From positions 1 to 47,271 of the forward strand of contig JALHOQ010000005.1 of NCBI GenBank assembly GCA_022842925.1: a DNA stretch of 47,271 nt. Reading direction: 5' to 3'. This document shows positions 7,846-29,721 of this stretch, piece by piece. A model generated the notes under the pieces. It had not been told where the DNA came from and ran no database searches. It worked only from the letters and a program-made list of their open reading frames with translations. The DNA is from Bdellovibrionales bacterium (lineage in GTDB: Bacteria > Bdellovibrionota > Bdellovibrionia > Bdellovibrionales > UBA1609). Made by a program: the position numbers and the translations under genes. The number at the start of each line of letters is the position of its first letter. Within the stretch, counting starts at the first letter, position 1.

Positions 7846-7876
7846 GTTACCTGAACACGTTGGAGCACTCAAAGAA

Positions 7877-7965
7877 GAGTTCATTTCAGCAGTCACTGTG
7901 ATGAACCATTCAATGAACTCCAAAGGTGGAGGGTCAGTCACCCCTTCACCTTTGGAGACCTCCTA
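7877..7965 (+). promoter_or_regulatory. Structured 5' leader of flagellin-2 (two hairpins plus anti-SD)
   Basis: GAGTTCATT (7877-7885)/AATGAACTC (7912-7920); CTCCAAAGGTG (7918-7928)/CACCTTTGGAG (7947-7957); CCTCCTA (7959-7965), perfect complement of the SD TAGGAGG (8085-8091). Confidence 0.55.
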
Positions 7966-8096
7966 CGAGAAGTAAAAAAATTTATTAACCCCGATAGGGA
8001 TGTCCTGTTCATTTCGCCGTCGGCCGGATGCTGGCTGTGGGCGGGTGTTATGGGCAGCGGTCTTAGGATTAGGCCAAGTACTTTTAGGAGGCCAAA

Positions 8097-8927
8097 ATGG
8101 GCTTAAGGATTAATACAAACATCGCTGCCGTTAGTGCGCAGCGGGTGTTGTCGAAACAGCAGGGGCGCTTGGAACATTCTCAACAAGCTCTCGCGTCAGG
8201 TTCCCGAATCGTAAAAGCTGCGGACGACGCAGCCGGATTAGCCGTGTCGGAAAATATCAGAGGCCAGCTCGCTGGTATTAAAGCCGCACGCAACAACGCC
8301 TTCAACGCACAATCGTTGATTCAGGTATCCGAAGGCGGACTAAATGAAATATCGAATATTTTAATTCGCTTACGCGAACTCGGTGTGCAAGCCGCATCCG
8401 ATACCGTGAGCGACGTGGAGCGCGAGTTCCTCGATCAAGAAGCACAACAGTTGGTCGCCGAATCCGACCGTATTGCTAAGTCGACCCGCTTTGGTAACAA
8501 AGCTCTGCTCGATGGCAACGGTGAGGAGTTCGAATACCATGTCGGACCCTTCGCAGAAGAGTCGGAGAACGTCATCCGCTACAAAATCGAAGCGGACGCC
8601 ACCACAGGTACCCTCGGCATAGATGGTGTCGGTTTGGCCGACAAAGGCGACGCCCGCGGAACTCTTGAAGCCGTGGACGAAGCGTTGGTCAAAATCGGTA
8701 AGATGCGCGCCGACTTCGGTGCCGTGCAAAGCCGGCTACAGATGACCACGAGCAACTTGGATATTCAGAACGAAAACCTAACCGCCGCTAAATCCCGTAT
8801 CTCCGACGCCGACATCGCGTATGAGACATCGGAGATGACTTCGGCGCAGATTCTCCAGGCCGCATCGGTCGGTGTGCTCGCGCAAGCGAACCAGAACGGC
8901 GCCTCGGCGCTGAAGCTGATCGGTTAA
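8097..8927 (+). CDS. fliC: Flagellin 2
   Basis: MGLRINTNIAAVSAQR..., DDAAGLAVSENIRGQ..., C-terminal VLAQANQNGASALKLIG; SD TAGGAGG. Confidence 0.95.
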   Translation: MGLRINTNIAAVSAQRVLSKQQGRLEHSQQALASGSRIVKAADDAAGLAVSENIRGQLAGIKAARNNAFNAQSLIQVSEGGLNEISNILIRLRELGVQAASDTVSDVEREFLDQEAQQLVAESDRIAKSTRFGNKALLDGNGEEFEYHVGPFAEESENVIRYKIEADATTGTLGIDGVGLADKGDARGTLEAVDEALVKIGKMRADFGAVQSRLQMTTSNLDIQNENLTAAKSRISDADIAYETSEMTSAQILQAASVGVLAQANQNGASALKLIG

Positions 8928-8944
8928 TCAAAGTGAGAGAACAA

Positions 8945-8968
8945 ATCGGTCCCGTAATCGGGACCGAT
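8945..8968 (+). terminator. Hairpin downstream of flagellin-2
   Basis: Perfect 10-bp stem ATCGGTCCCG-taat-CGGGACCGAT. Confidence 0.5.
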
Positions 8969-9092
8969 AATTTGCCAATATAATAATTAAACCGCGAGGG
9001 TGTTGTTTACCCGCGAAGTTACTCATCCTCGCGAGACCTTTTACAGGAATTTAGGCGACAGCGCCCACAGACAACCTGTCGCCTTAAGCCCG

Positions 9093-9128
9093 CCCTGGGG
9101 AAGTCCCACACTCCCCCGGGGTTTTTTT
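9093..9128 (+). terminator. Rho-independent terminator ending the flagellin-2 3' UTR
   Basis: CCCTGGGG...CCCCCGGGG followed by T7. Confidence 0.75.
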
Positions 9129-9183
9129 ATTTGCGCATCCCCGAGGGGATGACAATTGCCATCTCCTGACTTACCTAATCGGA

Positions 9184-9756
9184 ATGAAAATTCAAAAATA
9201 TCTACCCATGATTCTCATCACTCACGTCGTTTTCGCGGGTTTCTTTCTTCCCGCGGCTTTAACCTTCGCCATAACGGGTGGGCTTTATACCTTTGGCATC
9301 CGCGGATCCTATGAGACAAAAAGTCTCGAAATTCCACTCACTCTCCAAACTGACCCAAACTTGCCGGAGTTGATCTCCGTAGCGAAGCAGGTGTTGCTTG
9401 AACATTTTCACGGCGAGGTGCCATCGGGCGAACCGGCGGTCAAAAAAACGGGAACGAGCTGGAACTTTGAGTGGACGGGTGCCCGGGCGGATTTTGTTTT
9501 AGAACCTACCACCAATTCGGGAGTTTATAAGGTCAGCCTTAAAAAAACCGGATTCCACCGCTTTTTCGTACAGTTGCACAAAGCTAAGGGCGGCTGGCCG
9601 TTTAAAGTCTTGGCCGGGGGCCTGGCTGTGGCATTCGTGCTGTTGTTCGCGAGCGGAGTGGCAATTGCCCTGACTCGGCCGCGGGAAACGAAGCGACTCA
9701 TTTACAGTCTTAGCGCCGGTACTGCAGTGTTTTTGATCTGCCTCTATTTGAGCTGA
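9184..9756 (+). CDS. Hypothetical membrane protein with N- and C-terminal TM segments
   Basis: Hydrophobic segments at the N-terminus and two near the C-terminus. Confidence 0.6.
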   Translation: MKIQKYLPMILITHVVFAGFFLPAALTFAITGGLYTFGIRGSYETKSLEIPLTLQTDPNLPELISVAKQVLLEHFHGEVPSGEPAVKKTGTSWNFEWTGARADFVLEPTTNSGVYKVSLKKTGFHRFFVQLHKAKGGWPFKVLAGGLAVAFVLLFASGVAIALTRPRETKRLIYSLSAGTAVFLICLYLS

Positions 9757-9871
9757 GGAGCGATTTTCAACTCACTTTCAAATGCCTGTCCGCCGCGTTT
9801 TCATCTCGGCGATCCGCTGGACAGCGACCGAGCGGGGGGGTCATAGTGGGGCCAATCACTGAGGAGGATTG

Positions 9872-10846
9872 ATGAAAGCTTTCACCATAGTCGCATCGTT
9901 GTTGATTAGTCTGAATGCATGGGCCGATCTCACTGTTTTGACCGATCGCCCGCAGGCCCGCATGGCTAAGGCCGCGCAAGAGTTCACCGCCAAGACCGGC
10001 GTCAATGTGGTCTTTGTAGAGGCTGGTTATTCGGACCTGTTAAAAAAATTGGAAGAGAAATCCCCCGCCGATGTGATCATCACCAAAGACTTGGTTTATC
10101 TCACCGAACTGGATCAGAAAAAACTCTTAGCGCCGATGGCCCAATCGGCGGCAGTGCAAAAGGTGCAAGACTTTATGCGCGGGAACGGTAAAAATTGGGT
10201 GGCGCTTTCGTATCGAGTGCGCACAGTCGCCTACGATCCTTCGCGCGTCGAAGCCGCTGAACTCACGACCTATGAAGACTTAGCCTCGCCAAAATGGCGA
10301 GGACGTCTCTGTATGCGCTCGAGCAGCGGCTCTTATAATGAGGGTCTGGTGGCGTACCTGATTCAAACTCATGGCATAAACAAAGCCGAAGCGATTGTTC
10401 GTGGTTGGGTCGCAAATCTCGCCGCCCCGGTTTTCCGCAATGACACATCTATGCTGGAGGCCATCGCCAACGGCTCGTGTGACGTCGGAATCTCCAATCA
10501 CTATTATCTCGCCCAACTTCACGCCAAGAATCCTAACTATCCCGTTCAAATCGCATTCTTAAATCAAACTCAAGGCGGCGTGCATAGCAACGGAGCTGGT
10601 ATGGGAATCGTGGCCGAGACTTCCCAAACCGCACTGGCCCAACAGTTTATCGAAACGCTTTTGGCCGACCAATATCAGCTTGAGATTTCGGCCGCGCACT
10701 TCGATTATCCCGCGGCCAAAAATCTGGCGCCCACTTCGCTAATCAAAAATTGGGGAACGCCGAAGCTCGATAATTCTTCGTGGTCGGATATCGGCAAGCA
10801 CATTGCCGAGGCCCGCCGAATTATGAAAGAAGCAGGTTACAACTAG
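9872..10846 (+). CDS. Iron(III) ABC-transporter substrate-binding protein (FbpA/FutA type)
   Basis: Signal peptide, LTVLTDRPQARMAKAAQEFTAKTGVNV, SNHYYLAQL tyrosine pair; SD GAGGAGG just upstream. Confidence 0.85.
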   Translation: MKAFTIVASLLISLNAWADLTVLTDRPQARMAKAAQEFTAKTGVNVVFVEAGYSDLLKKLEEKSPADVIITKDLVYLTELDQKKLLAPMAQSAAVQKVQDFMRGNGKNWVALSYRVRTVAYDPSRVEAAELTTYEDLASPKWRGRLCMRSSSGSYNEGLVAYLIQTHGINKAEAIVRGWVANLAAPVFRNDTSMLEAIANGSCDVGISNHYYLAQLHAKNPNYPVQIAFLNQTQGGVHSNGAGMGIVAETSQTALAQQFIETLLADQYQLEISAAHFDYPAAKNLAPTSLIKNWGTPKLDNSSWSDIGKHIAEARRIMKEAGYN

Positions 10847-10850
10847 ACAG

Positions 10851-11489
10851 ATGGAAACCGCGCTCGTTTATTCACCAGTCCGTCAATGGGTCATCGCTTC
10901 AGGCTTAGTGCATCTAAGCCTGATCGCGTTTTTTGTATTGGGCCCGAAGTTTCAACTGCAAACGGAACAGCGGCAAATTTTGGAAGTGAGTTTTTTAACT
11001 CCGAAAGCGGCGCCGGGAGCGGAAGTTCAGTCGCCGCCGCCGGTACGGGTGCGACGACCCATCGCACCGGCTCAGCCGGTGCTTCAAGAAGCCCCGAGCC
11101 CGCAGCAGTCCGCGGCGAAATCTCCTGCGGAAACGGCTCCTGACGTGCTCAATCCGTCTGTGACTGCGATTACCACGGCCTCCGCGGACGCGGCCAGTGT
11201 CGAAGTTTTGAATGCCTATGAGATGGAAGTGGCCTCACGCCTCAACGCTCTAAAACGTTATCCGGACGCGGCCAAACGCATGCGCCAGCAGGGTCGTGTA
11301 ATGGTTCGTTTTAAACTCGACCGTGACGGGCATGTGCTCGTCCGTGAGATCGTGGAGCCCAGTCCCCATGCGACTCTCAACGAAGCCGCGCGCTCGCTTT
11401 TAAGTCAGATTCAGGAATTCAAACCCTTTCCCGCTCAATCAACCGTGACGTCATGGGTTTTTACGGTGCCGATCGAATATCGGCTGTAA
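10851..11489 (+). CDS. TonB-family energy transducer
   Basis: Single N-terminal TM, Pro-rich spacer, C-terminal YPDAAKRMRQQGRVMVRFKLDRDGHV TonB_C motif. Confidence 0.85.
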   Translation: METALVYSPVRQWVIASGLVHLSLIAFFVLGPKFQLQTEQRQILEVSFLTPKAAPGAEVQSPPPVRVRRPIAPAQPVLQEAPSPQQSAAKSPAETAPDVLNPSVTAITTASADAASVEVLNAYEMEVASRLNALKRYPDAAKRMRQQGRVMVRFKLDRDGHVLVREIVEPSPHATLNEAARSLLSQIQEFKPFPAQSTVTSWVFTVPIEYRL

Positions 11490-11498
11490 GAGGAAGTT

Positions 11499-12818
11499 AT
11501 GAAAATAATCGCCCGTCTTTTTTTCGCGACCGCGCTTGTGGCGCAGATTTCTTGCGCTGATTTTTTTAACTCAAGTGACCGGGCCGCCGCTGAGAATGGG
11601 CCGCGGGAGAAGACGGGCGCCAATCCCTTTCCCGCCGAGTATGATCCGACCGTAGGTCCGTTCTCCGAAAGCAAAATGCTGGCCCATATCGGGCTGAACA
11701 TCATTGCGCCGATGACTCGCGAACTGCGCCTGCACGCCGAAAACTTGCAACTGGAACTTGCGGCGTGGCGCGCGGCTGCTGAGAGCGGCGATGAGCCCGC
11801 GGCGGCTCTGGCTCAGCGTGCGGCCGAGGAGAGATGGACACGAACCATGCTCCTCTTTCATCAGATGGACGCCGCCCCCGTCGGACCCGCATCAGACAAT
11901 GGCGGCACGCTCGGACAGCAAATCTACGGCTGGCCCGATTTCAATGCCTGCGGAATTGATTTGGAAATGGTGAAATACGCCACGACCGGAAAAGCCCCCG
12001 GATCGCTGATCTATACGCTCAAGGGTTTAGGCGCCCTCGAGTACCTCCTGTTCGAAAAGTCCTTAAGCACGCAGTGCAATCGAAGCAATCCGCGTAATCA
12101 GCCGGCCGTCGAATGGACCACAAAAGATCCGCGGCGCAAATGGCTGGACCGTGCCACCTTCGCGACCGTGGTGGCCGCTGATTTAGTCGAGCAGGCGCGT
12201 AAGCTCGAGGCCGCATGGGACCCTCAGGGCGCGAATTTCGCCAAAGTCTTAATCGACGGTTCTCGTTATCGTTCGCTTCGGGAGGCGACCAACGCGTTAA
12301 GCGATTCCCTGTTCGCGATCGAGGATATTAAAGACCGTAGATTGGGCCGCCCTCTTGGACTCCATAAGGATTGTACAAATCCAGAGCGGAAGTGTGTCGA
12401 TAAGGTCGAACATCCGTGGTCCGGACTCGCCTTAAAGGCCATCGTCGCTCGGCTAGGTGGTCTGCTGGCGGTGGTCCGCGGTGGGCGTAGGGCGAATGCA
12501 CCCGGATTCGGCCTGGATGATCTTTTGACCGACTCGGGTCATGCCCAGGTGGGAGCGGACTTCGCGCGCCAGGTGCAGGAAGCCTACGACCGCGCTCATG
12601 CGGTCGACGGCTTAGGAGCTTTGGCGGATCAGATTACGGCCATGAAAAAAGAGGATCTCGATCGTTGCCGAAATTCGGCGGATGCTCAGGCACCGGTGCC
12701 GGTCTGCGCCCTCTTCCAGGATATTCGAAATTTAAATGTCTTCGTTAAGACGGAATTTCTCTCCGTGCTCTCACTCCGCGCGCCGCCGAAGTTCCAAGGC
12801 GACAATGATGATATTTGA
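11499..12818 (+). CDS. Imelysin-family iron-regulated lipoprotein
   Basis: Lipobox QISCADF; Imelysin-like GLGALEYLLFE; located between TonB and a TonB-dependent receptor. Confidence 0.8.
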   Translation: MKIIARLFFATALVAQISCADFFNSSDRAAAENGPREKTGANPFPAEYDPTVGPFSESKMLAHIGLNIIAPMTRELRLHAENLQLELAAWRAAAESGDEPAAALAQRAAEERWTRTMLLFHQMDAAPVGPASDNGGTLGQQIYGWPDFNACGIDLEMVKYATTGKAPGSLIYTLKGLGALEYLLFEKSLSTQCNRSNPRNQPAVEWTTKDPRRKWLDRATFATVVAADLVEQARKLEAAWDPQGANFAKVLIDGSRYRSLREATNALSDSLFAIEDIKDRRLGRPLGLHKDCTNPERKCVDKVEHPWSGLALKAIVARLGGLLAVVRGGRRANAPGFGLDDLLTDSGHAQVGADFARQVQEAYDRAHAVDGLGALADQITAMKKEDLDRCRNSADAQAPVPVCALFQDIRNLNVFVKTEFLSVLSLRAPPKFQGDNDDI

Positions 12819-14979
12819 CGCCCGTGTTCTGATTTTGGCGGGAGCACTCGGACTAAGTCCTTTGGCGATGGCTGAGGAGGGCGAAGAGAAGCAAACATAC
12901 TTGCCCGCGATTGAAGTCTTTGGCACCGGTGTCGAGACGTTGGGGCAGGCCCTGAATCCTGCTCGCGTAGGGGCCAAGAAGATCGAGCAGAATCAATACA
13001 CCGATGTCCATCGGGCGCTTAAAAATTCGCCCGGCATTTACTTGCGCGAAGAGGATGGCCAGGGTTTAAGGCCCAATATCGGCTTGCGCGGCACCAGCCC
13101 TGATCGATCAAAAAAGATCGTGCTTCTGCAAGATGGGGTTCTAATTGGTCCGGCTCCATACTCCGCGCCCGCGGCGTATTACACCCCGAGCATGAACCAC
13201 ACGGAGCGACTCGAGATACGCAAAGGATTTACGGCCCTTCCCTACGGGCCGAATTCGATCGGCGGCGCGGTTGATTATATTTCGACGCAAGTGCCGCTCG
13301 AAAAGCGGGGAGAAATCAAAGCCAACTACGGTTCATTTAATACCCACAATCTAAAAGTCGGCCAGGGTGGTCCGCTTGGTCGTAATGGCTATCTTCTTGA
13401 GAGCTCACACCGAGCGAGTGACGGCTTTAAAAAGCTGGACGGCGGTGGCGACACCGGCTTTGAACAGTTCGGTGTTTTTGGCAAGTGGGATTGGAAACTT
13501 TCTGAACGGTTAAACATCCTTTTTACCGGAGGATACTCGAACGAGAATTCAAAAGAGACTTACCTTGGGCTCACACGGGCGGACTTCGGCTCATCACCTT
13601 ATCGCCGATACGCGGCCTCACAGCTCGACGAAATGAAATGGAACCATTCTCTCGTGCAGGCCCGCGGGAATCTGCAAACAGGTGCCAACAGCACTCTAGA
13701 AGCCACGCTTTATCGCCATGATTTCGATCGCAATTGGTACCGACTCGACGGCTTTCGTAATACTGGAGTCAATCTGCGCGATATTCTCAATAACCCCAGT
13801 GGCGGCAATGCGGCCTATTATGACATCGTAAGAGGCGCCGCGGATACCTCGTCGATTGGCGCCAACGGCGAGCTGAAGCAGGTGCGCAATCGTCGCACCT
13901 ACTTCAGTCACGGCGCGCAGTTGAGTTGGTTCGGCGATTTTAAGGTGAGTGAGGAGCATAGGCATTCGCCCGAATTTGGATTGCGCTGGCATCAAGATGC
14001 AATTGTTCGCGATCACACTTCGGACCATTACGAAATGCTCTCCGGCCGCTTGCTCCGTACGAGCGCCGCGCGCCAAACGGATGCCAAGAGTCGCGGTTCA
14101 GCGACCGCCGTGACCGTGACGGCGCTCGATAACTGGCGGCTCGGTACGCGCACTCTGACACCGATTGTTCGCTTTGAATCAATCGACTTCCGAAACAAAG
14201 ATAGTCTCACTGGCTCGAGCACGGGGCGTACGGACTCATTTTGGTTGCCGGGCTTTTCGGTTACGGAAACACTAAGGGATCGCTACGCGGTGCGAATGAG
14301 CGTGAACGAAGCGGCGACCGCGACGGGAGTTGGTTCAGCTGCCCGCGAACGGGCAACAAATTACGAAGCCGAGTTCAGTTACAAAAATCCCGAGCGCAAT
14401 CAGGAATTTCAACTTGTATACTTTTTCAACGATTACCGAAATATCACCGGTACGTGCACCGTATCGAGCGGATGCCTAAGCGGCACCGATGAGCAGTTCA
14501 GTGGAGGTCGAGCCCGTGTGGAAGGCGTTGAACTGAGCGCCGCCAAGGGGTTTCACAGTGGTCGCGTGTATATTCCAGTGCAAGCCAATGTCACACTTCT
14601 AAAGACCGAGTTTCTCTCCGACTTTAATTCCACTTCGCCGGAGTGGGGCAGTGTGGTTCGAAGAGGGGATCCATTGCCTTATATTCCGGAGGCCCAATTT
14701 ACCCTTTCCGTTGGCGTGGAGGTCGGTCGATTCAAGCAGGACCTGACTCTGTCGCATCAGTCCAAAGTGTATGATCAAAGCGCTCAGTCGGGTCGCCAGG
14801 AAATCGCCGCCTTTGGCGTGGTGGATTGGGCCGGGGAGTATGCGCTGAACCGTAAAACCCGTGTTCTCGCCAAAATCGACAATGTGCTCGCCCGCGAATA
14901 TGCCGTGGCGGCCCGCCCGTTCGGCTTTCGACCCGGTAAACCGCAGAGCTTCCAGCTCGGTTTAGTATATGGATTTTAA
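12805..14979 (+). CDS. TonB-dependent receptor (FecA-like siderophore/iron receptor)
   Basis: Plug domain (SPGIYLREEDGQGLRPNIGLRGTSPDRSKKIVLLQDG), beta-barrel, C-terminal ...QLGLVYGF; starts inside the imelysin stop region. Confidence 0.88.
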   Translation: MMIFDARVLILAGALGLSPLAMAEEGEEKQTYLPAIEVFGTGVETLGQALNPARVGAKKIEQNQYTDVHRALKNSPGIYLREEDGQGLRPNIGLRGTSPDRSKKIVLLQDGVLIGPAPYSAPAAYYTPSMNHTERLEIRKGFTALPYGPNSIGGAVDYISTQVPLEKRGEIKANYGSFNTHNLKVGQGGPLGRNGYLLESSHRASDGFKKLDGGGDTGFEQFGVFGKWDWKLSERLNILFTGGYSNENSKETYLGLTRADFGSSPYRRYAASQLDEMKWNHSLVQARGNLQTGANSTLEATLYRHDFDRNWYRLDGFRNTGVNLRDILNNPSGGNAAYYDIVRGAADTSSIGANGELKQVRNRRTYFSHGAQLSWFGDFKVSEEHRHSPEFGLRWHQDAIVRDHTSDHYEMLSGRLLRTSAARQTDAKSRGSATAVTVTALDNWRLGTRTLTPIVRFESIDFRNKDSLTGSSTGRTDSFWLPGFSVTETLRDRYAVRMSVNEAATATGVGSAARERATNYEAEFSYKNPERNQEFQLVYFFNDYRNITGTCTVSSGCLSGTDEQFSGGRARVEGVELSAAKGFHSGRVYIPVQANVTLLKTEFLSDFNSTSPEWGSVVRRGDPLPYIPEAQFTLSVGVEVGRFKQDLTLSHQSKVYDQSAQSGRQEIAAFGVVDWAGEYALNRKTRVLAKIDNVLAREYAVAARPFGFRPGKPQSFQLGLVYGF

Positions 14980-14982
14980 ACC

Positions 14983-15915
14983 ATGAACAGTGAACGCTGG
15001 GCTATTTTATGGGAGCGGTTTTTAATCCCCATAGACGATCCGGGTTCACGCTTATTTCATATGAACATTTTGATGGCTTTGGCCTTTCTGGCGGTCTGGC
15101 TGTGGTGGGTGCGCCGCTCTGAGGTGAGGCCGCAAGAGAGCTTTTGGGAGACAATCCGCCGTCTGGTTTTAAAGCGCCGCTATTGGTGGAACAACAGCAC
15201 TAAGGTGGACTACCAAGTTTATATATTGAATGGACTGCTGAAAGTCTTGCTGCTGATTCCGTTCTTGGATTTTAGTTTTCAGATTTCCCGCTTTACTTCG
15301 CAAACACTGGTACGAATCAATGGCGACTTCGCGGGCCTTGAGGCCACCCCTCCGATCCTTTTGGCTTTCACGGCCGTCACCTTTGTGTGGAACGACTTTC
15401 TCAGTTTTTGGCAGCATTGGCTGATGCATAAAGTGCCTTGGCTTTGGCGCATTCACTCCGTTCATCATTCAGCCCGGATCTTGACGCCGATGACTCTTTA
15501 TCGCAATCATCCTCTTGAGTCCGCCATCTCTACGGTTCGCAGTTCGCTTAGCCTGGGTATGATGACGGGTGTATTCATTTTCTTGTTTGAGTCCCGCTTC
15601 ACGGTGGTCACACTTTTCGGTGTGAATGCTTTTGGTTTTCTGTTTAATTTGCTCGGCTCGAACCTTCGGCACAGCCATATCCCGATCGAATTCGGCCGCT
15701 GGATCGAGACGATTTTTATCAGTCCACGGCAGCATCAGGTTCATCACTCCACCGACCCCGCGCATTTCAATAAAAATCTCGGAGTGTCGCTTGCGCTGTG
15801 GGACCGATTCAATGGCACGCTGATGTACTCCAAGGACGCGAGAGGGAAACATCTCCGATTTGGCTTGGCGGGACCACGCCGCCAAAGCCTGTGGCGGGCT
15901 TTACTCCTGCGGTAG
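14983..15915 (+). CDS. Sterol desaturase / fatty-acid hydroxylase superfamily membrane protein
   Basis: His-box clusters QHWLMHKVPWLWRIHSVHHS and RHSHIP...RQHQVHHS. Confidence 0.85.
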   Translation: MNSERWAILWERFLIPIDDPGSRLFHMNILMALAFLAVWLWWVRRSEVRPQESFWETIRRLVLKRRYWWNNSTKVDYQVYILNGLLKVLLLIPFLDFSFQISRFTSQTLVRINGDFAGLEATPPILLAFTAVTFVWNDFLSFWQHWLMHKVPWLWRIHSVHHSARILTPMTLYRNHPLESAISTVRSSLSLGMMTGVFIFLFESRFTVVTLFGVNAFGFLFNLLGSNLRHSHIPIEFGRWIETIFISPRQHQVHHSTDPAHFNKNLGVSLALWDRFNGTLMYSKDARGKHLRFGLAGPRRQSLWRALLLR

Positions 15916-15925
15916 TAGTTTTCGA

Positions 15926-20806: not shown

Positions 20807-21008
20807 AGGTAAATTATCGGTATTTCTGCGGTCTTTTTTATTGGGCCGAAAGTCCAGGAGCTTGTAACTATGACAATCGCGTTTAAGATTTGCACGCACT
20901 CAATCGCAGGCGACAGTGCGGGAGCGAATTAAGAGGGGGCTAGCGACTAAGAAGTGCGGCACAAGGTTCGCAAATTGATCGCGAAACTCAAAATTAGGAA
21001 CGAGACGC

Positions 21009-21329
21009 ATGAAGTGGTGGGTAACCTGGTTGGCGATGTGGGGTGGATTGCAGGTGCAGGCCTCGGAGCCGGCCTGTGTACTTGAGTACCGTAAGGCCTA
21101 TATCGAGCTCGCCCGGACAAATGATCCCCGCTACCAGGATGCAGCCGATGTCTATTCCGTCTATTTCGATTTCACCCATGGTCTCACCCCCGTTCAGAGC
21201 GAAGACCAGCGCCAGGTCTTGGAAGTGATCAAGAGCGGTATGGAGAGCGGATCGCTGTGCACCTTCCTCGGATATACTAAGAGCAAAGAGCAGATTTTGA
21301 ATCAATTGCTGGCGGGCCGTCAGAAATGA
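21009..21329 (+). CDS. Small secreted hypothetical protein
   Basis: Signal peptide; two Cys; stop overlaps next gene start. Confidence 0.55.
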   Translation: MKWWVTWLAMWGGLQVQASEPACVLEYRKAYIELARTNDPRYQDAADVYSVYFDFTHGLTPVQSEDQRQVLEVIKSGMESGSLCTFLGYTKSKEQILNQLLAGRQK

Positions 21330-22099
21330 GAGTGGCCGTGGTCGTTCTCTTTTTCTCGATCTCTCTTCCCGCCGTGGCCCACAATTGGGGGGGCTTTGAC
21401 AGCGGGTACACTCGAGAAGAAGTGGATGCATTGTCACTTCAGATTCAGCAGCGCCTCGAGCGAGAGGACACGGACGCCGCCGTCGCCCTGGTCAAACGCT
21501 TCATTCAAGAACATTCCGAGGACATCCTGCTGCGCCAAAGCAATGGACATAGTAAATATCGCCTAATCCGCAGCCTCGTCAGTTCCCCTGCTTGGGCCGC
21601 AACGGACGGGACGACGCAAGCTTCGATTCTCAGCATCGCTTTGAAGTATGGACCATTGACTCCCCGGTATGAAAGAGAGCTGCTCTATTTAATGGCGCGA
21701 ACGGGAACCCTTGAAGGTATGGCCGCGGTGTTGGCGCGGGCTCTTATACCGAAGTCGGCCGATAAGGGTTACCTTTCGAATTTGACTTACGAGTCCCTAA
21801 TCAGCCATTGGGTTCGTGCTTGGCACCGGCTCGCGAACGGTTTTCTGACCGCCGATCATCCGGTCGAAGCGCATGAGCTTGTCGCGGCGGTGGCCGTCTG
21901 GCTCAGTCGCTTTACGCATCCAGATGAAGTTGTAATGGAGGTCACCGCGCGCACCTCAAAACAGGCTCTGCAAGTCTTGCCCCTATTAATAAGTTTGCGT
22001 CGTGATTGGCCAGGAACGTTGAGTGAAGTGCAGGCCAATCGCCTTCGCTATTGGCAAAATGCCCGAGGTTGCGAATCGCCATTAATCGCTCCCGATTAG
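21326..22099 (+). CDS. Secreted hypothetical helical-repeat protein
   Basis: Signal peptide; ATGA-type overlap with upstream ORF. Confidence 0.55.
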   Translation: MRVAVVVLFFSISLPAVAHNWGGFDSGYTREEVDALSLQIQQRLEREDTDAAVALVKRFIQEHSEDILLRQSNGHSKYRLIRSLVSSPAWAATDGTTQASILSIALKYGPLTPRYERELLYLMARTGTLEGMAAVLARALIPKSADKGYLSNLTYESLISHWVRAWHRLANGFLTADHPVEAHELVAAVAVWLSRFTHPDEVVMEVTARTSKQALQVLPLLISLRRDWPGTLSEVQANRLRYWQNARGCESPLIAPD

Positions 22100-22253
22100 C
22101 AAATCCGAGCCGCCCATGAGTTCAACACGCCCCTCCCTGTGAAGAACTTTTGCTCACTCGCTTCGGGTTATATTTGAGCCTGCGAAATATAAAAATTCTT
22201 CGCAACTTTTTCTCCCAGCCTTCCGTCTAGTCATAAGCTAGCAGGGGGCATCA

Positions 22254-25200
22254 ATGAGGGCAGTCCGTATCAATTTGATACGAGGGGTGTTAGGGCTAAT
22301 CACGCTTTGTTTTCCTCTTTTATTTAACAGTTGCAGCGGCGGTTTTAAATCTTACAAGTCCGATCAGTCGAGCGCTCTCCTAAGCCAGCCTGTTTCGTTT
22401 GATCGGAACGCGATTCCGCAATTCGCCAAAACGTCCGTCACGGTCATGGGCAAGTGCCTCCGCGGCCGCCCGATCAAGCTTTTCGTTGATGGGGTCTCAG
22501 CGGGACCAGACAGCACCTGCGATGGCGGACTCTTCAGCGCTGAAGTCGCGTTACTCGGCGATGACGGTCTTAAGCAGATCATAGTTTCGCAGTTCGACAT
22601 TTCAGGCCGCGAAATCCAAGACAGTGTCTCGGTAAATAAAGACACTCAGGCTCCCGCGGTCGCCCTTGTGACCGTGACCCGGCTCGCCACGCCCGCGGGC
22701 GCATACTCCCTGACCGGGACGTGTGAAGCGGGCGTCGATCTCTCAATCTCGGGCGACATCGCCTCCTTGCTGACGGGCGCCGCATGTGTCAACGGCGTTT
22801 TTCAAGTTACGGCCAATTTATCTCCTGGAGATGGTGTTAAAAACCTTGTTGTGCAACAGACCGATAAGGCCGGCAATGTCGGGCAGGGTACAATGGCGCA
22901 CACCGTGGATACGATGCCACCAGTTCTGACCGTGGCGGCACCGCAAATGAACGCCGTTTTTAAAGACTCCGTTACCATCAGCGGGACGTGCGAGACGGGT
23001 CTTCGGGTGGTGGCGGCGGGCGCCGGGCTTAGCGCGCCGGTTGAAGTTCTTTGTTCGGCGGGAAATTACAGTTTGTCGGCGGCTTTATCCGCGGGCGACG
23101 GACCAAAGGAAATTCTACTTTCACATACGGACGCTCAAGCCAACAAGGCCGAACAGCGTTTGACTGTCGTTCGCGATACGACATCGCCGCGTCTGACAAT
23201 CGTGGCACCGGCCATGGGGGCCGTGGTGCGCGCCAACGTCACGCTCAATGGAACCTGCGAAAACGGTTTGAATGTGCAAATATCCAGCGCCGCGCTTTCA
23301 CAAGCTCAGACGATCGCCTGTAACAATTCGGCTTTCTCGGCGGCTTTGAATCTCAGTGGTGCCGATGGTTCGGTTACGATCACGGCCGCCCAAACCGATG
23401 CCGCCGGCAACTCCGGCTCGGCCGCGGTCACGGTCGTGAAAGATACGGTCGCACCCCTTCTTGTTTTGTCTACGCCGGCGCCCAACAGTTTCGCCATGAA
23501 CACCGTGGTCGCGGCCGGAACTTGTGAGTCGGGCTTGCCCGTGATGGTCAGCGGCGCGGGCGTTGCCCAACCCGGCCAGATCGCCTGCACGGCAGGAGCC
23601 TTCTCGGCTACGCTGACTCTTTCAGCGGGCGATGGCGCTAAACCGATCGTGTTCATGCAGACCGACGCGGCGGGGAACTCATCCCAGGTGAGCGTGACCA
23701 TTACTAAGGACACGGTTGCACCAGTCTTAACGGTCACGGCTCCGGCCAACAATGCCACCTTTACAACCGAGTCGATTGCCGTAAATGGTGCCTGCGAAAC
23801 TGGAGTCCCGGTCTCGATTGGCGGCACTGGAGCGGCTTCGGCATTGCAATTGGGCTGCGTGAACTCGGCCTTCTCCGGCACTCTGGTTCTCTCGGCCGGT
23901 AACGGCACCAAGGCCCTCGAGTTTCGGCAAACGGATGCGGCCGGCAATTCGGTTCTAGTTCAACGCTCAGTGAGCTTGTCGGTACCTGCGACTGTGCTCG
24001 CCATCACGGCGCCCGCCGCCAATTCGTTTAACAGGGGAACGCTGAGCCTACAGGGTGTTTGCGAATCAAACCGCACGGTTTCCATCAGTGGCGATGTCAG
24101 CGCCAACTCATCGGTCACTTGCGTGAACGCGGCCTTTACGGCGCCGGTGACTCTCTCAGCCGGCGATGGATTGAAAACGGTTCGAATCTCCCAAATCCAA
24201 TCGACGGGAATGACCGCGATGGATTCCCGCAGTTTCACCAAAGACACGGTCGCACCAGCGGTTTTGATCTCGCAGCCGGCCGCGAACTCGGCCTTTCAAG
24301 CCTCCCTCAGCCTAAGCGGAACCTGCGAAAGCGGATTGAGCGTGACGATTGACGGCTCAGGAGTTTTGACCGCCCAGACCGCCACTTGCGCTAGCGGAGC
24401 TTTTACCGCCACGGTCACGCTCTCGGCTGGCGATGGCAGCAAAATCGTGAATGTCGCGCAAACGGACGCGGCCGGTAACCGGGGCTCGGCGACTCGAACT
24501 TTCCTGCGCGACAACGCAGGTCCCAATCTCACCATCACCGCGCCCGCGGCCGGAACGACGGCCTCTCAGGGGCTGACCCTTCAAGGCGCCTGCGAGGGCG
24601 GCAACCCGGTTCAAATCAGCGGCTCCGGCGTGGCCGCGGCTGTGAGCGTGTCCTGCGTGAGCTCGGCCTACTCGGCGGCAATCACTTTCTCAACTGGTGA
24701 AGGAGCGAAGGCTGTGTCTGTGGCGCAAGCGGATTCCGCGGGCAATAGCACCACCGTCAATCGTCAGTTTAACAAAGACTCCGTGGCTCCGACGATTGCC
24801 TTTACGGCGCCGGCCGCTGGAACCGCTGCAGCCGCAGGTGTTACGTTGAATGGCAGCTGTGAGTCGGGTCTCACTGTGCAGATCTCCGGTGGGGTTTCGG
24901 CGAACACGTCGGTCAGCTGCGCGAATTCCGCCTTCACGGCCAATATTACTTTCTCGTCGGGTGAGGGCGCCAAAACCATAACCGTGGCGCAAACGGACGC
25001 CGCCGGTAACACCGGAAGCGCCAGTCGTGGATTCGTGCGCGACTCGGTTGCTCCAGTGGTGACCATCGCGCAACCGGCTTCTGGCGCGTTCGTGCGCTCG
25101 CCGGCCACGGTTTCAGGACTTTGTGAAGCCGGGATTCCGGTCGTGTTGTATGGATCGGGCGTGGCGACACAAGTGACCGTGAGCTGTTCCGCCGGAATGT

Positions 25201-26348
25201 ACTCCGGTTCAGTGACACTTACGGCGGGCGACGGAGCCAAAGAAATTCGGGCCGGCCAAACGGACGCGGCTCAGAATTTCGGAGTGGCTGTTGTGAACGT
25301 GGCTCTTGATACAGTGGCGCCGAATGTCGCGATTCAGGCACCGGAGGCGGGAACGTTGGCTCCAAATGGGCTTACGGTTTCAGGCGCGTGTGAAAGCGGC
25401 CTACCTGTGGTGGCCGGCGGCAGCGGCGCGGCCTCAATGGTGCAAGTGAACTGCACGAACGCCGTATTCTCGGTCAATGTGGTTTTCTCAGCGACGGACG
25501 GACAGAAGCAAATCTCCGTCACTCAAACCGATGCGGCTGGAAACACAAGATCCGATACTCGCGTGTTCGAACGCGGAGATCCGGTTGTAAAGGGCACGGC
25601 TCTTTACACCGCTCACTGCGCGATTTGCCACGGCCCGCTCGCCACGTCCACAAAGCTGGGCCGTACGGCCGCGCAGATTTCCGGCGCGATTACGACCATT
25701 CCCGCCATGCAGAATCTCGCGACAACCCTAACAGCCAAAGACATCGAGTATATCGCCGCGGCCTTGGGTCAATCGACATCGGTTCCCGTAAGCGGTTCCA
25801 CCGCCGCCGTCATCCCGATCGGCACGCGAACATATATGGCTTCGGTCTTTACCGATATCTTTGTCGATCCCGCGAGTACGGCGACGGCGAACACCACCAT
25901 TCGCAATTTAATCAACAGTCATTTGTTGAATCGACCCTCGGCGCTGGGCGGCCCTTGTCGCCGCTATGATGACGTGTGCCCCGAGCAATCGGGCGCGCGC
26001 CAGGCCTCGGAAACTTGGGACATGGCTGACGCCTGGGTTCTGCCCGCGGCGACTCCACTTAGAGAAGGTTACATCACTCGCGCTTGCAACGAGATCCTGG
26101 CCCAGGATTTAGCCGTCACCAACGTGCTCAAGCGGGCGGGTAACCTGACGGCGACCGCGCCGGCCAGCGACGCCAATGTTGGCCTTGTCTACGGCATCTT
26201 TCATCTCGGCTTCACGGTTCCCAGTTCGGATCTAACCAATCTTAAGGCCATTCATGCGGGCGCGCTCAGCCGGGGCATGAGTACGACGGACGCTTGGCGC
26301 TTCACGATTCTGGCCATCTGCCAGAGCCCGGGAACGGAGACATTATGA
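22254..26348 (+). CDS. Large lipoprotein with about 12 Ig-like repeats fused to a cytochrome c domain
   Basis: LFNSCSGG lipobox; repeats of ~88 aa with G-[TAS]-CE-G ... C ... F ... QTDAAGN ... KDTVAP; C-terminal HCAICHG heme motif. Confidence 0.85.
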   Translation: MRAVRINLIRGVLGLITLCFPLLFNSCSGGFKSYKSDQSSALLSQPVSFDRNAIPQFAKTSVTVMGKCLRGRPIKLFVDGVSAGPDSTCDGGLFSAEVALLGDDGLKQIIVSQFDISGREIQDSVSVNKDTQAPAVALVTVTRLATPAGAYSLTGTCEAGVDLSISGDIASLLTGAACVNGVFQVTANLSPGDGVKNLVVQQTDKAGNVGQGTMAHTVDTMPPVLTVAAPQMNAVFKDSVTISGTCETGLRVVAAGAGLSAPVEVLCSAGNYSLSAALSAGDGPKEILLSHTDAQANKAEQRLTVVRDTTSPRLTIVAPAMGAVVRANVTLNGTCENGLNVQISSAALSQAQTIACNNSAFSAALNLSGADGSVTITAAQTDAAGNSGSAAVTVVKDTVAPLLVLSTPAPNSFAMNTVVAAGTCESGLPVMVSGAGVAQPGQIACTAGAFSATLTLSAGDGAKPIVFMQTDAAGNSSQVSVTITKDTVAPVLTVTAPANNATFTTESIAVNGACETGVPVSIGGTGAASALQLGCVNSAFSGTLVLSAGNGTKALEFRQTDAAGNSVLVQRSVSLSVPATVLAITAPAANSFNRGTLSLQGVCESNRTVSISGDVSANSSVTCVNAAFTAPVTLSAGDGLKTVRISQIQSTGMTAMDSRSFTKDTVAPAVLISQPAANSAFQASLSLSGTCESGLSVTIDGSGVLTAQTATCASGAFTATVTLSAGDGSKIVNVAQTDAAGNRGSATRTFLRDNAGPNLTITAPAAGTTASQGLTLQGACEGGNPVQISGSGVAAAVSVSCVSSAYSAAITFSTGEGAKAVSVAQADSAGNSTTVNRQFNKDSVAPTIAFTAPAAGTAAAAGVTLNGSCESGLTVQISGGVSANTSVSCANSAFTANITFSSGEGAKTITVAQTDAAGNTGSASRGFVRDSVAPVVTIAQPASGAFVRSPATVSGLCEAGIPVVLYGSGVATQVTVSCSAGMYSGSVTLTAGDGAKEIRAGQTDAAQNFGVAVVNVALDTVAPNVAIQAPEAGTLAPNGLTVSGACESGLPVVAGGSGAASMVQVNCTNAVFSVNVVFSATDGQKQISVTQTDAAGNTRSDTRVFERGDPVVKGTALYTAHCAICHGPLATSTKLGRTAAQISGAITTIPAMQNLATTLTAKDIEYIAAALGQSTSVPVSGSTAAVIPIGTRTYMASVFTDIFVDPASTATANTTIRNLINSHLLNRPSALGGPCRRYDDVCPEQSGARQASETWDMADAWVLPAATPLREGYITRACNEILAQDLAVTNVLKRAGNLTATAPASDANVGLVYGIFHLGFTVPSSDLTNLKAIHAGALSRGMSTTDAWRFTILAICQSPGTETL

Positions 26349-27727
26349 GAATCTTCACCGCTGTTCTACTTTTGTTTTCAAATGCCGCCGGCGCGGATGT
26401 GGCGCTCTCTAACTTGGCGATTTACAATCGTTGCCACGCCCAACTCACCGGCGAGCGGCCGCTCCTGTCGGATTCTCTCACTCAGCAGGTGCAAGCCGGA
26501 ACCTTGGACCCGATCGCGGCCTGCACCACGATTCTCAATGGGGCCCTGCTGAACTCCTCGGGCGGCTTGGCGAATGTAAACGATGCCCGCGCCAAAAAGG
26601 TGCTGAGGACGTTGCATAACGTTCATGGCTCTTGGTTCGCCCGCACCGATTTTCAGCAGGTGTTTTCGATCAATTCCCAACAGGGAGCGCAGGATATTTA
26701 CGATAGCTCCATGCCGGCGCTTTATTTTACGCGGGCCTTACTCGCCCCAACGTCTGACATCACATCGGTACTGAACACATCCGACATTTTAAAGCCCGTT
26801 CGCACCAACTCCACAACTGATCGCGGCCTCGCGTCCAATATGCCTCTTTCGGAATATCAGGTGGGGAGTTATGGGGTCAGTGGCGGAATTCCCTTCGCGC
26901 CCAAGGGAGAATTGCTGGGGATGCAAACCGTAGCTCCTCTGTCGCTGGCTTATAACAGTCAATACTACGGAAGCGGAACCGCGAGAGTTTATGCCAATGC
27001 AGGCGGCGGCGTGATGGGCAATTATGTTTATATTTTGCAGAATGCGTCTTTGCCGGAGCGGTTTACGGCGGATGGGGGACTGCGAATGCCCAGGCGTTGG
27101 GCTCGCTCCGTTTATCACGATCTCTTGTGTCGCGATTTGCCCCTGATTCGCGCGGCGGACTCCAATCCATTTGTCGCCACCGGCTCTAGCATCGCTTTTC
27201 GTCAAAGCGCCGCCTGTGTCCGCTGCCATGCGAGCATGGATCGGATGGCGAGCGTGATTCGCAATATAGTTCCCAAAAGTTTCTCCATTGGTGAAGGCGT
27301 CGGTGGGGCCTACGACTTTCTCGACACGGTCGCCACTTCCTCCACGGCCGAGTCGGCTTGGCCGACGGCGAGCGATTCCAACTACCATCGCCGCCCAACC
27401 AACGGAGTGTTGTTCTTTCGTAATTACCAGGGCGCTTTGGTCGACATCAACGTCACGGACGCGCAGAACCTGGCGAACCAGATCTTGGCGCAAGACGATT
27501 TCTATATTTGCATGGCGAAGCGGTATTATCGGTACCTGACCGGCGTCGACGCCGACACGGGGGATATCGGGGACCCGGATCGCGCGCCGTTAAGTACAGC
27601 GGATATGAGTCACCGGACAACGGTCATCAATCTCGGAATGACTTTGAAGACGAATCGGGATGTCCGCCTATTAATCCGGAACATCATGAATCTGCCGAGC
27701 TATAAACGCTCGGCGGCGGGACAGTAG
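26345..27727 (+). CDS. Secreted CxxCH-containing protein, partner of the DUF1501 protein
   Basis: ATG at 26345 overlapping upstream stop; signal peptide; SAACVRCHASMDRM. Confidence 0.75.
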   Translation: MRIFTAVLLLFSNAAGADVALSNLAIYNRCHAQLTGERPLLSDSLTQQVQAGTLDPIAACTTILNGALLNSSGGLANVNDARAKKVLRTLHNVHGSWFARTDFQQVFSINSQQGAQDIYDSSMPALYFTRALLAPTSDITSVLNTSDILKPVRTNSTTDRGLASNMPLSEYQVGSYGVSGGIPFAPKGELLGMQTVAPLSLAYNSQYYGSGTARVYANAGGGVMGNYVYILQNASLPERFTADGGLRMPRRWARSVYHDLLCRDLPLIRAADSNPFVATGSSIAFRQSAACVRCHASMDRMASVIRNIVPKSFSIGEGVGGAYDFLDTVATSSTAESAWPTASDSNYHRRPTNGVLFFRNYQGALVDINVTDAQNLANQILAQDDFYICMAKRYYRYLTGVDADTGDIGDPDRAPLSTADMSHRTTVINLGMTLKTNRDVRLLIRNIMNLPSYKRSAAGQ

Positions 27728-27736
27728 GGGTGGCCT

Positions 27737-29311
27737 ATGAATCATAAACTTCCACGCAGACAGCTTCTCAAGTTACTCGCCACCATCGGGGCCGGCCGCC
27801 AGGTTGAAGCCACACTCGGCGGGTTGGCCACCACCATCTTAAGTGGCGTGGTGCAAAAGGCGCAGGCTCAGCAAGCTGGCCTCAATCCGCGCAACTTCAT
27901 TAATATATATTTAAGTGGTGGATATCCGCGTTGGATGTTTGACGGTTTCCTTCAGCCTTATGGGGCGACCGGATATGTCGCCAACAAACAGGCCGCCACA
28001 CGCTATGTCGCCAGCAATGGCCGTTACACCGATGTCACCTATGCGACGCATTCGTTTAACGGCGTCAATTATCCCTGGCAGTGGCAGTTTGCGTTGCCCA
28101 CGCCAAGCGGAACGCGGCCGATGACCGATTTGTCCCGCAACATGCTTGTGCTGCAGGGGTTAAACTCCCTCTCCGAAGCTCACGATTTGGCGTTTAGCAA
28201 CTTGTTCCTGCCTTTGGGCTCCACCCAGAGTCTGCAATGCCTTGGCGCCGACCATTCTTCGGCGCCCTTCGCGGGTATGTCGCACAATACGGCGCCCATC
28301 TGGAAATCGAAGGCGCAGAAGGTCGGCACCCGAATCGGGGGCTACGACATCAATTCCGTTTTTAACGAAATGATGACGCCGTTTAACCTGCAGGTGCCGA
28401 GCACCTTTTCCTCCAATCTTAGTCAATTGAAGAGTTTGATGGATGCGGCCGCGACCAGCTTGAGTGGCAGTGCCAATGCCCGCAATCCCAATGCGGCCTT
28501 GATTCAATCCAGCAAGGCGTCAGCCGTGCAGCTTATGGCTCAATCCCTATCGACCAAGCAATCGCTGATCCAGGGGATGTACACCAAATACAGAAACCTG
28601 ATTGCCCAAGCCGTGGCGCCAACCGCGGTTTTTGCGGGCATCAATGACCTTCCGGTCGGTGCGACCGAGAATCGGGACACCAACCTCTACAACTCTGTTC
28701 CAAGCTCGCTCACCGATATTCGCTCTCTGGTCACCACCAATATAGTGAGCAACGATATGGCTCGCTGTTTCGCCTTTGCCGAATTCGTTATCACGCAGGG
28801 CTTAACCCAATCGGTGACGGTGGATCCGCGCTCGCTCTATTTCCCGGGTCCCTTCTACCTCCCGGACGAGCATGAGTTCGGTGTTATGGCGAGTGTGCTG
28901 CTGCACTTTTACAACACGCGCGCCATCGCGGCCTGTTTGATGGAGCTGATCGCGGCCTTACAGACGGCCAATGTCTTTAACAACACGATCGTGATGGTTT
29001 CGAGCGAATTCGGGCGCTCGGCGCGCGCCAACGGTAGTGGCTCCGATCACGGGCAGAACTCCTCAAGCGCGACTTTCTTTAGCGGAGCAATTCAAGGCCC
29101 ATATGTTGCCGGAAATATTCGCGGTAACTCCACAATCGGAGGTTACTCTGGCTCGTGGGGTGACAGCGACGGTAGCCGGGACTTCGGCCATCTGTTGAGC
29201 AGTGTCGCGACCATGTTGCGGGTGCCCTCGCCGCTGACGGCGCGTCCGTCTCTTGTGGCGGAATCGGGCGGCGTGATCTCGTCGCTCTTGCCTAGAACCA
29301 CGATCGTGTAA
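27737..29311 (+). CDS. DUF1501-like secreted protein
   Basis: N-terminal PRRQLLKLLATIGAG (Tat-like); VSSEFGRSARANGSGSDHGQNSSS motif characteristic of DUF1501. Confidence 0.8.
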   Translation: MNHKLPRRQLLKLLATIGAGRQVEATLGGLATTILSGVVQKAQAQQAGLNPRNFINIYLSGGYPRWMFDGFLQPYGATGYVANKQAATRYVASNGRYTDVTYATHSFNGVNYPWQWQFALPTPSGTRPMTDLSRNMLVLQGLNSLSEAHDLAFSNLFLPLGSTQSLQCLGADHSSAPFAGMSHNTAPIWKSKAQKVGTRIGGYDINSVFNEMMTPFNLQVPSTFSSNLSQLKSLMDAAATSLSGSANARNPNAALIQSSKASAVQLMAQSLSTKQSLIQGMYTKYRNLIAQAVAPTAVFAGINDLPVGATENRDTNLYNSVPSSLTDIRSLVTTNIVSNDMARCFAFAEFVITQGLTQSVTVDPRSLYFPGPFYLPDEHEFGVMASVLLHFYNTRAIAACLMELIAALQTANVFNNTIVMVSSEFGRSARANGSGSDHGQNSSSATFFSGAIQGPYVAGNIRGNSTIGGYSGSWGDSDGSRDFGHLLSSVATMLRVPSPLTARPSLVAESGGVISSLLPRTTIV

Positions 29312-29322
29312 CGGTCGTCGCT

Positions 29323-29339
29323 GGACCGACCGTCGGTCC
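29323..29339 (+). terminator. Palindromic hairpin after the DUF1501 gene
   Basis: GGACCGAC-C-GTCGGTCC shortly after stop at 29311; no T-run. Confidence 0.4.
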
Positions 29340-29464
29340 GGTCGAGGTCCGAAAGCCTTTCGTCCAAACACATCTCGTCATCCTATCTATTAGGTTATGA
29401 ATTCAAAACACTCATCCAAAGTCTAGTTCGTATCTGACCATGGTCCAGTTCTACTAGACGCGAC

Positions 29465-29491
29465 TTAAGTGCGCCCAGACCTCGCCGATCA
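29465..29491 (+). promoter_or_regulatory. Sigma28-like promoter for flagellin-3
   Basis: TTAA-N15-GCCGATCA. Confidence 0.6.
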
Positions 29492-29721
29492 GCTAGTCAA
29501 GCAAGCGAAGCAGTGGATGGGTTTCGCAAGGTGAGAGCGCTACAGGGAGTGACTGCCCGGTAAACAAGCTCGATTGCAGCCTTGCCGTAATTTTTCAACT
29601 GCTCCAACGTGTTCAACCCAAGCCGCATGGATGCGACGCTTTCTCCTCAAGACCTTGAGTAGGTTCAAGTCGGAGGGAGCCGGGCATTGAAGGATCGCCC
29701 ACACTGCAAAAGGAGGACCCT

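Follow-up and report, generated by a model that had tools for sequence, protein, structure and literature searches.

Matched changes in the leaders of three flagellin genes of Bdellovibrionales support RNA–RNA pairing in trans

In the plasmid CopA/CopT system, two cis-encoded and fully complementary RNAs make a kissing-loop contact plus a longer intermolecular duplex, and in the FasX–ska pair a small RNA that pairs at the mRNA 5′ end has a stabilising effect. The flagellin leaders described here resemble the former in combining a putative kissing loop with a longer duplex, but their partners are unlinked genes joined by short, selected contacts. As with FasX–ska, a duplex would occupy the 5′-terminal part of the target, although here the regulator would be a flagellin mRNA leader itself and stabilisation is putative.

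A σ28-type promoter and a flagellar context are shared by the σ28-dependent UTR-derived sRNAs of E. coli (PMC10578931), by CJnc170 and CJnc230 of C. jejuni (PMC11187230) and by the leader of the gene called fla2 here, and post-transcriptional pairing with flagellar mRNAs would be expected in common. Unlike those FliA-dependent sRNAs, the RNA considered here belongs to a flagellin gene as its leader and has the leaders of paralogous flagellins as partners; the pairing is long and multi-site, and the setting is not that of an Hfq-dependent sRNA, as none of the 6 genomes searched yielded Hfq (PF17209), in contrast to control genomes, which gave matches. The flaA mRNA of C. jejuni, under CsrA–FliW control, is also a flagellin mRNA whose leader has a role in trans (PMC4894983); that role is titration of a protein, whereas here it would be base pairing to other flagellin mRNAs.

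In B. bacteriovorus, the filament contains several flagellins in the fixed order FliC3, FliC5, FliC1, FliC2, FliC6, and the available part of the report does not explain how this order is achieved (PMC2791853). APsRNA3, an attack-phase sRNA of about 128 nt from strain HD100, appears in the available part of PMC3627812 as an intergenic sRNA with no assigned function, and targets, covariation or homologues are not named there.

Complementary segments in the window

The window, that is, the whole stretch of 47,271 nucleotides analysed, has the following features, given with the basis of each.

6162–6187 (+): fla1 σ28-type promoter (TAAAG-N15-TCGATA); sequence
6193–6211 (+): anti-B, predicted 5′ terminus of fla1 mRNA, 19 nt complementary to arm B; compensatory changes
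6296–7126 (+): fla1 coding sequence, flagellin, GTG start inferred, AAGGAGG upstream; Pfam Flagellin_N/C
7819–7844 (+): fla2 σ28-type promoter (TAAAG-N15-CCGAGA); order-wide conservation
7852–7867 (+): arm A of the fla2 leader, trans partner at fla3 29600–29615; comparative sequence
7879–7897 (+): arm B of the fla2 leader, partner at fla1 6193–6211; comparative sequence
7918–7957 (+): fla2 leader hairpin P4; covarying stem
7935–7941 (+): P4 loop CAGTCAC, putative kissing contact with the fla3 hairpin loop at 29549–29555; covariation
7960–7966 (+): 3′ strand of helix P1, CTCCTAC here, CTCCAAC in the consensus; covariation
8097–8927 (+): fla2 coding sequence, flagellin, fliC1-like; Pfam and HD100-like match
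29465–29490 (+): fla3 σ28-type promoter (TTAAG-N15-CCGATC); sequence
29545–29558 (+): fla3 leader hairpin GGG-AGTGACTG-CCC, loop complementary to the P4 loop; within-genome stem matching
29600–29615 (+): anti-A, fla3 leader segment exactly reverse-complementary to arm A; comparative sequence
29722–30555 (+): fla3 coding sequence, flagellin, fliC2-like; Pfam and HD100-like match

The fla1 promoter agrees with the HD100 attack-phase consensus TTAAG-N16-CCGATA given in the available part of PMC3627812. As an earlier note on this DNA had reported, the 16-nt TGAACACGTTGGAGCA at 7852–7867 (+) has its exact reverse complement at 29600–29615. This site lies about 100 nt 5′ of the fla3 start codon; anywhere else in the 3.66-Mb assembly TGAACACGTTGGAGCA is matched with at least two mismatches. 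The fla2 start proposed there, at about 7852, is supported by the −10 box CCGAGA at 7839–7844, and, counted from this predicted +1, arm A takes up the initial ~16 nt of the RNA and arm B nt +28 to +46. Arm B belongs to a perfect 19-nt pair between fla2 and fla1 (7879–7897 with 6193–6211), for which the runner-up place in the genome carries three mismatches, and its partner is the predicted extreme 5′ end of the fla1 mRNA. Two shorter segments mentioned in the same note were also recovered, GCAGTCACT at 7889–7897 and GAGTGACTGC in the fla3 leader, the latter at 29547–29556, one base to the left of its earlier placement.

Under a first-order Markov model, a mean of 0.7 perfect inverted 16-mer pairs is expected per 47-kb sequence, and two unrelated ones (13247/15682 and 24536/33499) are also present in the window; therefore, the 16-mer by itself is unremarkable, and judging significance from the window alone was dropped as weak. 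When limited to the four flagellin leaders, the chance expectation is 6e-5 for the 16-mer and 1e-6 for the 19-mer. The support for the 16-nt pair that we regard as decisive is conservation and compensatory change, as read from genome comparison.

Conservation and compensatory changes of the two duplexes

Among 35 genomes, complementarity within the same genome was 12.0 nt for arm A and 13.2 nt for arm B, compared to 9.2 and 9.3 nt in mismatched combinations. The matched value was not reached by any shuffled pairing (0/20,000 for each arm), and the same-orientation control was flat. Compensatory changes were detected in 8 of the 12 pairs of duplex A and in 11/17 of duplex B (28 genomes). Double-change cells of duplex B numbered 63 vs. 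17.8 after shuffling; for duplex A there were 19 (4.4 after shuffling) in the order sample, and 25 (4.8) once the genus Bdellovibrio and held-out genomes were included and row G078 was left out. Slid controls collapsed. In the genus Bdellovibrio the core of arm A is rewritten (TGTTACTTGTTGG) and faces a perfect, equally rewritten partner, and in G047 a shortening is common to both partners. Duplex lengths range from 12 to 16 bp for A and reach up to 21 bp for B, with only a short partner for arm B in some of the fla1-bearing genomes (e.g., G045, G054 and G057).

The fla2 leader element was found in the order only, in one copy per genome. Fourteen held-out genomes were chosen only by the RNA model, and all 10 of those with fla3 inside the stretch carry a perfect site A of 12–15 nt (permutation 2/10000 for A and 8/10000 for B). 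The chance expectation given above is what speaks for a fortuitous match or a recent inverted duplication, an explanation contradicted by all the comparative evidence and refuted by the held-out genomes, so that its probability is practically negligible.

Pairing partners lie in some genomes on other strands or contigs, and in G010, G011 and G015 they are encoded on opposite strands, which means that pairing there must be in trans. Conserved complementarity to unlinked mRNAs, as looked for in trans-acting sRNAs, is thus found here. The pattern that the earlier note had proposed to seek at orthologous loci is present across Bdellovibrionales with changes in both partners, and, judged from the aligned genomes, the pairing partnership is conserved in the order via matched mutations. 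This evolutionary evidence argues strongly for trans RNA–RNA pairing between flagellin leaders.

The geometry differs in part from that proposed earlier, in which the 5′ end of each flagellin mRNA matched the leader of the next and an antisense-like ordered hierarchy was suggested. Such a hierarchy is conjectural. The match of 5′ end and leader holds for fla1–fla2 and fla2–fla3, and the leader–leader pairing is borne out by order-wide compensatory evolution, but the chain ends before fla4 and the other flagellins: no complementarity of at least 9 nt to the element was found in fla4 or in the flagellins of contigs C7 and C29. The arrangement appears better described as a hub, with the fla2 leader contacting both fla1 and fla3.

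CsrA is encoded in 6/6 genomes tested and arm A contains TTGGAG, as would suit a conserved GGA-containing leader that titrates CsrA in the manner of C. jejuni flaA mRNA, the complementarity being a by-product. Binding of CsrA, however, gives no reason to expect another transcript to change in step, and the GGA of arm A is not kept on its own account, as expected under CsrA–FliW control, but is lost in G009 (TTGAAG), G042 (TTGGCG) and G057 (TTGGGAC) while pairing persists. We consider titration very unlikely.

Hairpins, a putative loop–loop contact and ribosome sites

The cis helices P1 and P4 of the fla2 leader covary, including GUUGGAG/CUCCAAC of P1, in which the GUUGGAG of arm A pairs with 7960–7966, and compensatory changes were found in 9/9 pairs counted in the P4 stem. 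An additional helix between arms A and B, returned by RNAalifold, had no double changes and was not adopted. At the gathering score, the window had no match in Rfam.

A third contact is suggested by the P4 hairpin loop, complementary to the fla3 hairpin loop in 26 of 28 genomes (absent, for example, in G029) and covarying with it in G007, G009, G044 and G048. RNAalifold on a MAFFT alignment gave nothing for a consensus fold of the fla3 leader; tested directly, the stem flanking the fla3 loop was matched within genomes (0/10000), and both stems bearing the complementary loops covary. The earlier assignment of GAGTGACTGC as a partner of arm B is superseded, as the P4 loop (7935–7941) is the best partner for its 7-nt core and covaries with it where arm B stayed unchanged.

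Since the stems of both hairpins covary, the elements are expected to act as RNA and not as DNA operators. Sites for a regulator that binds duplex DNA in either orientation, the other option in the earlier note, would fit the conserved CTAGACC/CTGGACC boxes that flank the fla2 promoter just upstream, and for a DNA-binding protein inverted orientation alone carries no weight either way. Several observations oppose this reading: lineage-specific matched changes extend over 12–21 bp (the shared shortening of G047 included), the contacts covary base by base, the loops sit on covarying stems and the sites are downstream of +1. Such operators are extremely unlikely.

In the predicted fold, nt 1–7 of arm A are mostly open and nt 8–15 mostly paired. 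A rival reading of the mode of action builds on this: the fla3 leader would invade P1 of fla2 via the free 5′ toehold UGAACAC, and the freed CUCCAAC/CCUCC strand, which includes an anti-Shine-Dalgarno-like CCTCC, would cover the ribosome site of fla2 and turn it off. The covariation of GUUGGAG/CUCCAAC agrees with such a switch, as does the complementarity of the CUCC strand to the ribosome site, which is raised when strand and site come from one genome (181/10000; G026 and G029 are examples). This last signal is nevertheless weak, folding gave no consistent closure (up in 12, down in 8) and P1 is imperfect in the window, so that the switch seems rather improbable.

Constrained folding with the sites occupied produced no consistent change in accessibility of the fla1, fla2 and fla3 ribosome sites. 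Unaltered accessibility, with some 100 nt between the paired sites and the ribosome site, would be compatible with a different mode of action in which each duplex buries the 5′ terminus of one mRNA and shields it from 5′-end-dependent decay, the fla1 end in the fla2 leader and the fla2 end in the fla3 leader, each stabilising its predecessor without a separate small RNA. In each duplex, one partner pairs from its predicted +1 onwards (fla1 6193 and fla2 7852); these starts are predicted, however, the published HD100 start falls a few nt inside arm A, and the loop–loop contact and the cis helix P1 are left unexplained. This capture of 5′ ends, which concerns the mode of action and not the pairing itself, is possible, if on the unlikely side.

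A candidate leader-derived RNA in the attack phase

The structure of the fla2 leader, its complementarity in trans, and the conservation and specificity of the latter are established by the comparative analysis; formation of duplexes in cells and their effects are proposed on this basis. In the reading that we prefer and hold to be quite probable, the fla2 leader, a structured RNA, targets the fla1 and fla3 mRNAs in trans and so tunes the flagellins. Transcribed from a FliA (σ28) promoter, it would form a 12–16 bp duplex with the fla3 leader through its 5′-terminal arm A, reinforced by a second, 7-nt contact between the P4 and fla3 hairpin loops, and arm B would pair with the 5′-terminal stretch of the fla1 mRNA over as much as 21 bp. 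The long perfect duplexes and the loop–loop contact may substitute for Hfq. Through pairing, the three mRNAs would most likely be linked in their stability or translation, and the ratio in which flagellins enter the filament, or their order there, could be tuned in this way.

In an HD100-like genome (G059, apparently HD100 by its coordinates), the fla2-type leader precedes fliC1, a gene starting at 562,130, and fliC2 takes the place of fla3; APsRNA3 (561,854–561,981) coincides with the element, and arm A pairs over 12 nt only. Position, strand, promoter class and size of APsRNA3, as given in the available part of PMC3627812, equal those of the fliC1 leader element. The 5′ end published for APsRNA3 is some 5 nt further in than the predicted +1 and, taken literally, would trim arm A. 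The published data and the matching of coordinates thus suggest that in B. bacteriovorus the leader accumulates as a discrete ~128-nt attack-phase RNA. Given this RNA and the FliA promoter, the leader most likely works also as a 5′-UTR-derived sRNA; within the preferred explanation an sRNA-type action is our first choice, at about even chances. If true, a stable ~128-nt fliC1 leader RNA beginning near UUGUACACGUUGG should be found in HD100, and the orphan APsRNA3 would acquire both a target and a purpose.

These data favour a conserved RNA circuit that joins the fliC1- and fliC2-type flagellin genes, with extended mRNA-leader complementarity in bacteria without detected Hfq (6 genomes). That this network is self-contained, flagellin mRNAs recognising each other via their leaders and thereby setting relative amounts or filament order, is put forward tentatively, at somewhat less than even chances; if true, the order of subunits would be governed by a direct and conserved mRNA-to-mRNA circuit, a novel type of regulation. 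Translated to HD100, the pairing links fliC1 and fliC2, whose products form adjoining segments of the filament according to the available part of PMC2791853.

Complementary segments in the flagellin leaders

All four flagellin genes of the window (fla1 to fla4) were assigned as flagellins by Pfam, and a sigma28-type promoter was recognized in the sequence of fla1, fla2 and fla3, with predicted +1 positions at about 6193, 7852 and 29498, respectively. The segments concerned are:

6193-6211: predicted 5' end of fla1, complementary to arm B (duplex B)
7852-7867: arm A, fla2 leader
7879-7897: arm B, fla2 leader
7918-7957: hairpin P4, fla2 leader
7960-7966: fla2 segment pairing in cis with arm A (helix P1)
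29600-29615: anti-A site, fla3 leader, complementary to arm A (duplex A)

The 16-mer of arm A and its exact reverse complement in the fla3 leader, on which the earlier note was based, were both confirmed. In an assembly-wide search this pair was the best (runner-up with 2 mismatches), and the fla1/fla2 pair was perfect over 19 nt (runner-up with 3 mismatches). Judged on its sequence alone, the 16-mer does not stand out, since 0.7 such pairs were expected per window by first-order simulation and two unrelated ones were present; the expectation confined to the four flagellin leaders was 6e-5.

The fla2 leader is itself structured (-50.7 kcal/mol, z -6.5), with GUUGGAG of arm A pairing in P1 with CUCCAAC located 3' of P4. 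P1 and P4 together showed 95 compensatory cells vs. 30.8 in shuffles, mostly from P4. Nucleotides 1-7 of arm A were predicted to be mostly open and the following eight mostly paired, a layout that may be toehold-like.

Conservation and covariation of the pairings

By DNA search, 37 of 59 related genomes matched the fla2 upstream region, usually over the promoter and ~50 nt at the start of the leader (70-88% identity). When 291 genomes of the phylum were scanned with a covariance model of the structured leader element, built on 34 leaders, 40 matches were obtained, each from a different genome and all confined to this order; the scan misses the divergent genus Bdellovibrio, of whose 24 genomes 17 had the element by DNA search. 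In many genomes, pattern matching again placed an anti-A site 5' of a second flagellin, with ACATGTT/AACATGTT among the pairs altered on both sides. Named contigs bearing the fla2 leader motif were for the most part from Bdellovibrionales, other matches (e.g. Halorubrum, Clostridia) being presumably chance matches of a short pattern.

Complementarity was then tabulated in 40 fetched stretches around elements and flagellins, with the flagellins located first. Same-genome values were above cross-genome values for arm A (12.0 vs. 9.2 nt) and arm B (13.2 vs. 9.3 nt), each with 0/20,000 permutations. In the same-orientation control, same- and cross-genome values did not differ. The arrangement did not extend to the other flagellins of this genome, the sites being absent from the leaders on contigs C7 and C29, and fla4-type leaders in the table were also without pairing sites.

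Compensatory changes affected 11 of 17 pairs of duplex B among 28 genomes (63 cells vs. 17.8 in shuffles; score 0.391 vs. 0.144, with slides of 1-3 columns at 0.13 or below) and 11 of 16 pairs of duplex A among 26 genomes (19 cells vs. 4.4). When genus Bdellovibrio and the held-out genomes were added to the latter (51 genomes, 19 distinct rows), changes were compensatory in 8 of 12 pairs (25 cells vs. 4.8; score 0.381 vs. 0.142, slides at 0.11 or below). Because the sites had been selected for being complementary, the percentages paired are inflated, but the mismatched genomes of the permutation test underwent the same selection. In some Bdellovibrio species the arm A core is rewritten (TGTTACTTGTTGG) and its partner is rewritten to match perfectly. 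Informally, arm B was noted to be absent from the element where no fla1 lay nearby (HD100-like genomes, G043).

In 14 held-out genomes, selected solely by the covariance model, all 10 whose stretch included a fla3-type gene carried a perfect arm A complement of 12-15 nt at about -60 to -180 of that gene. Permutation results were 2/10000 for arm A and 8/10000 for arm B, and controls were flat.

A putative third contact, again between the fla2 and fla3 leaders, would pair the P4 loop, CAGUCAC, with a fla3 hairpin loop, GUGACUG. Of 27 rows, 25 had these 7-mers exactly complementary (G001, which the pattern passed over and which is outside these rows, also has GTGACTG). The loops co-vary, as UAGUCAC/GUGACUA in G007 and G044 and as CAAUCAC/GUGAUUG in G009 and, within Bdellovibrio, in G048. 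For the fla3 10-mer that the earlier note had matched to arm B, the P4 loop is thus a better match, since these changes are not mirrored in arm B. Stems of both hairpins were also matched within genomes (0/10,000 permutations each). Since the arm A and loop contacts run in antiparallel order along both RNAs, they could coexist in one complex.

A probable small RNA from the leader and its possible action

In an HD100-like genome (a presumed identity) the element lies at 561,802-562,002. PMC3627812 places APsRNA3 of HD100, a 128-nt plus-strand RNA with a FliA promoter, at 561,854-561,981, with its level 191-fold up in attack phase. This span covers the element from inside arm A to a U-run past P1, and its published 5' end is ~5 nt inside the predicted +1. 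Flagellin ORFs start at 562,130 and 564,214; by the gene order in PMC2791853 these are fliC1 and fliC2 (Bd0604, Bd0606), whose products, according to the same paper, form adjoining filament segments.

Hfq was not found in any of the six genomes tested, the controls being detected, CsrA was present in all six, and predicted accessibility of the ribosome site was not consistently shifted by site occupancy. These results favour, over 5'-end capture or a leader switch as the mode of action, a leader-derived small RNA that would control the stability or translation of partner mRNAs. No description of this network was found in the open-access literature searched; what was retrieved on mRNA-mRNA pairing of flagellin transcripts, flagellar UTR-derived sRNAs and Bdellovibrio RNAs concerns systems that are related but of another kind.

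Other features of the loci

CsrA genes numbered two in this genome (contigs C197 and C207) and one in each of five others tested. Published APsRNA4 (HD100 562,984-563,081; 1985-2082 of stretch L241 from the HD100-like genome) is probably the fliC1 3' end, because it begins 30 nt past the fliC1 stop codon.

Conserved promoter boxes of fla2 and fla3, possibly an extra activator site, lie at 7779-7838 and 29453-29480; CTAGACC(A/T)AAG and CTGGACC(A/T)AAG flank the fla2 -35 order-wide, and ACTAGACGCG is common to both promoters. The fla1 leader motif CTGTGGGCGC (6218-6229) is widely kept among the genomes and appears to complement GGTGCTCAC (6287-6298), the ribosome-site/start region, which suggests a separate, putative sequestering hairpin. 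Further conserved motifs, a GACAGGGATGTC-like small hairpin and GGCTGTGGGCGG, occur 3' of the element at 7985-8050.

Two REP-like 33-nt direct repeats, 94% alike (AAAGGTACCAGGTTCTTTTT.CAGAAGCGT.GC), sit at 32011-32083 between fla4 and an hrpB-like helicase, and L241 has a repeat resembling them, AAGGTGCC...GGTG, close to fliC1/fliC2. Between the flagellin pairs, a 1364-aa ORF (22254-26348) with Ig-like and cytochrome c-like matches is followed further 3' by a DUF1501 protein (27737-29311).
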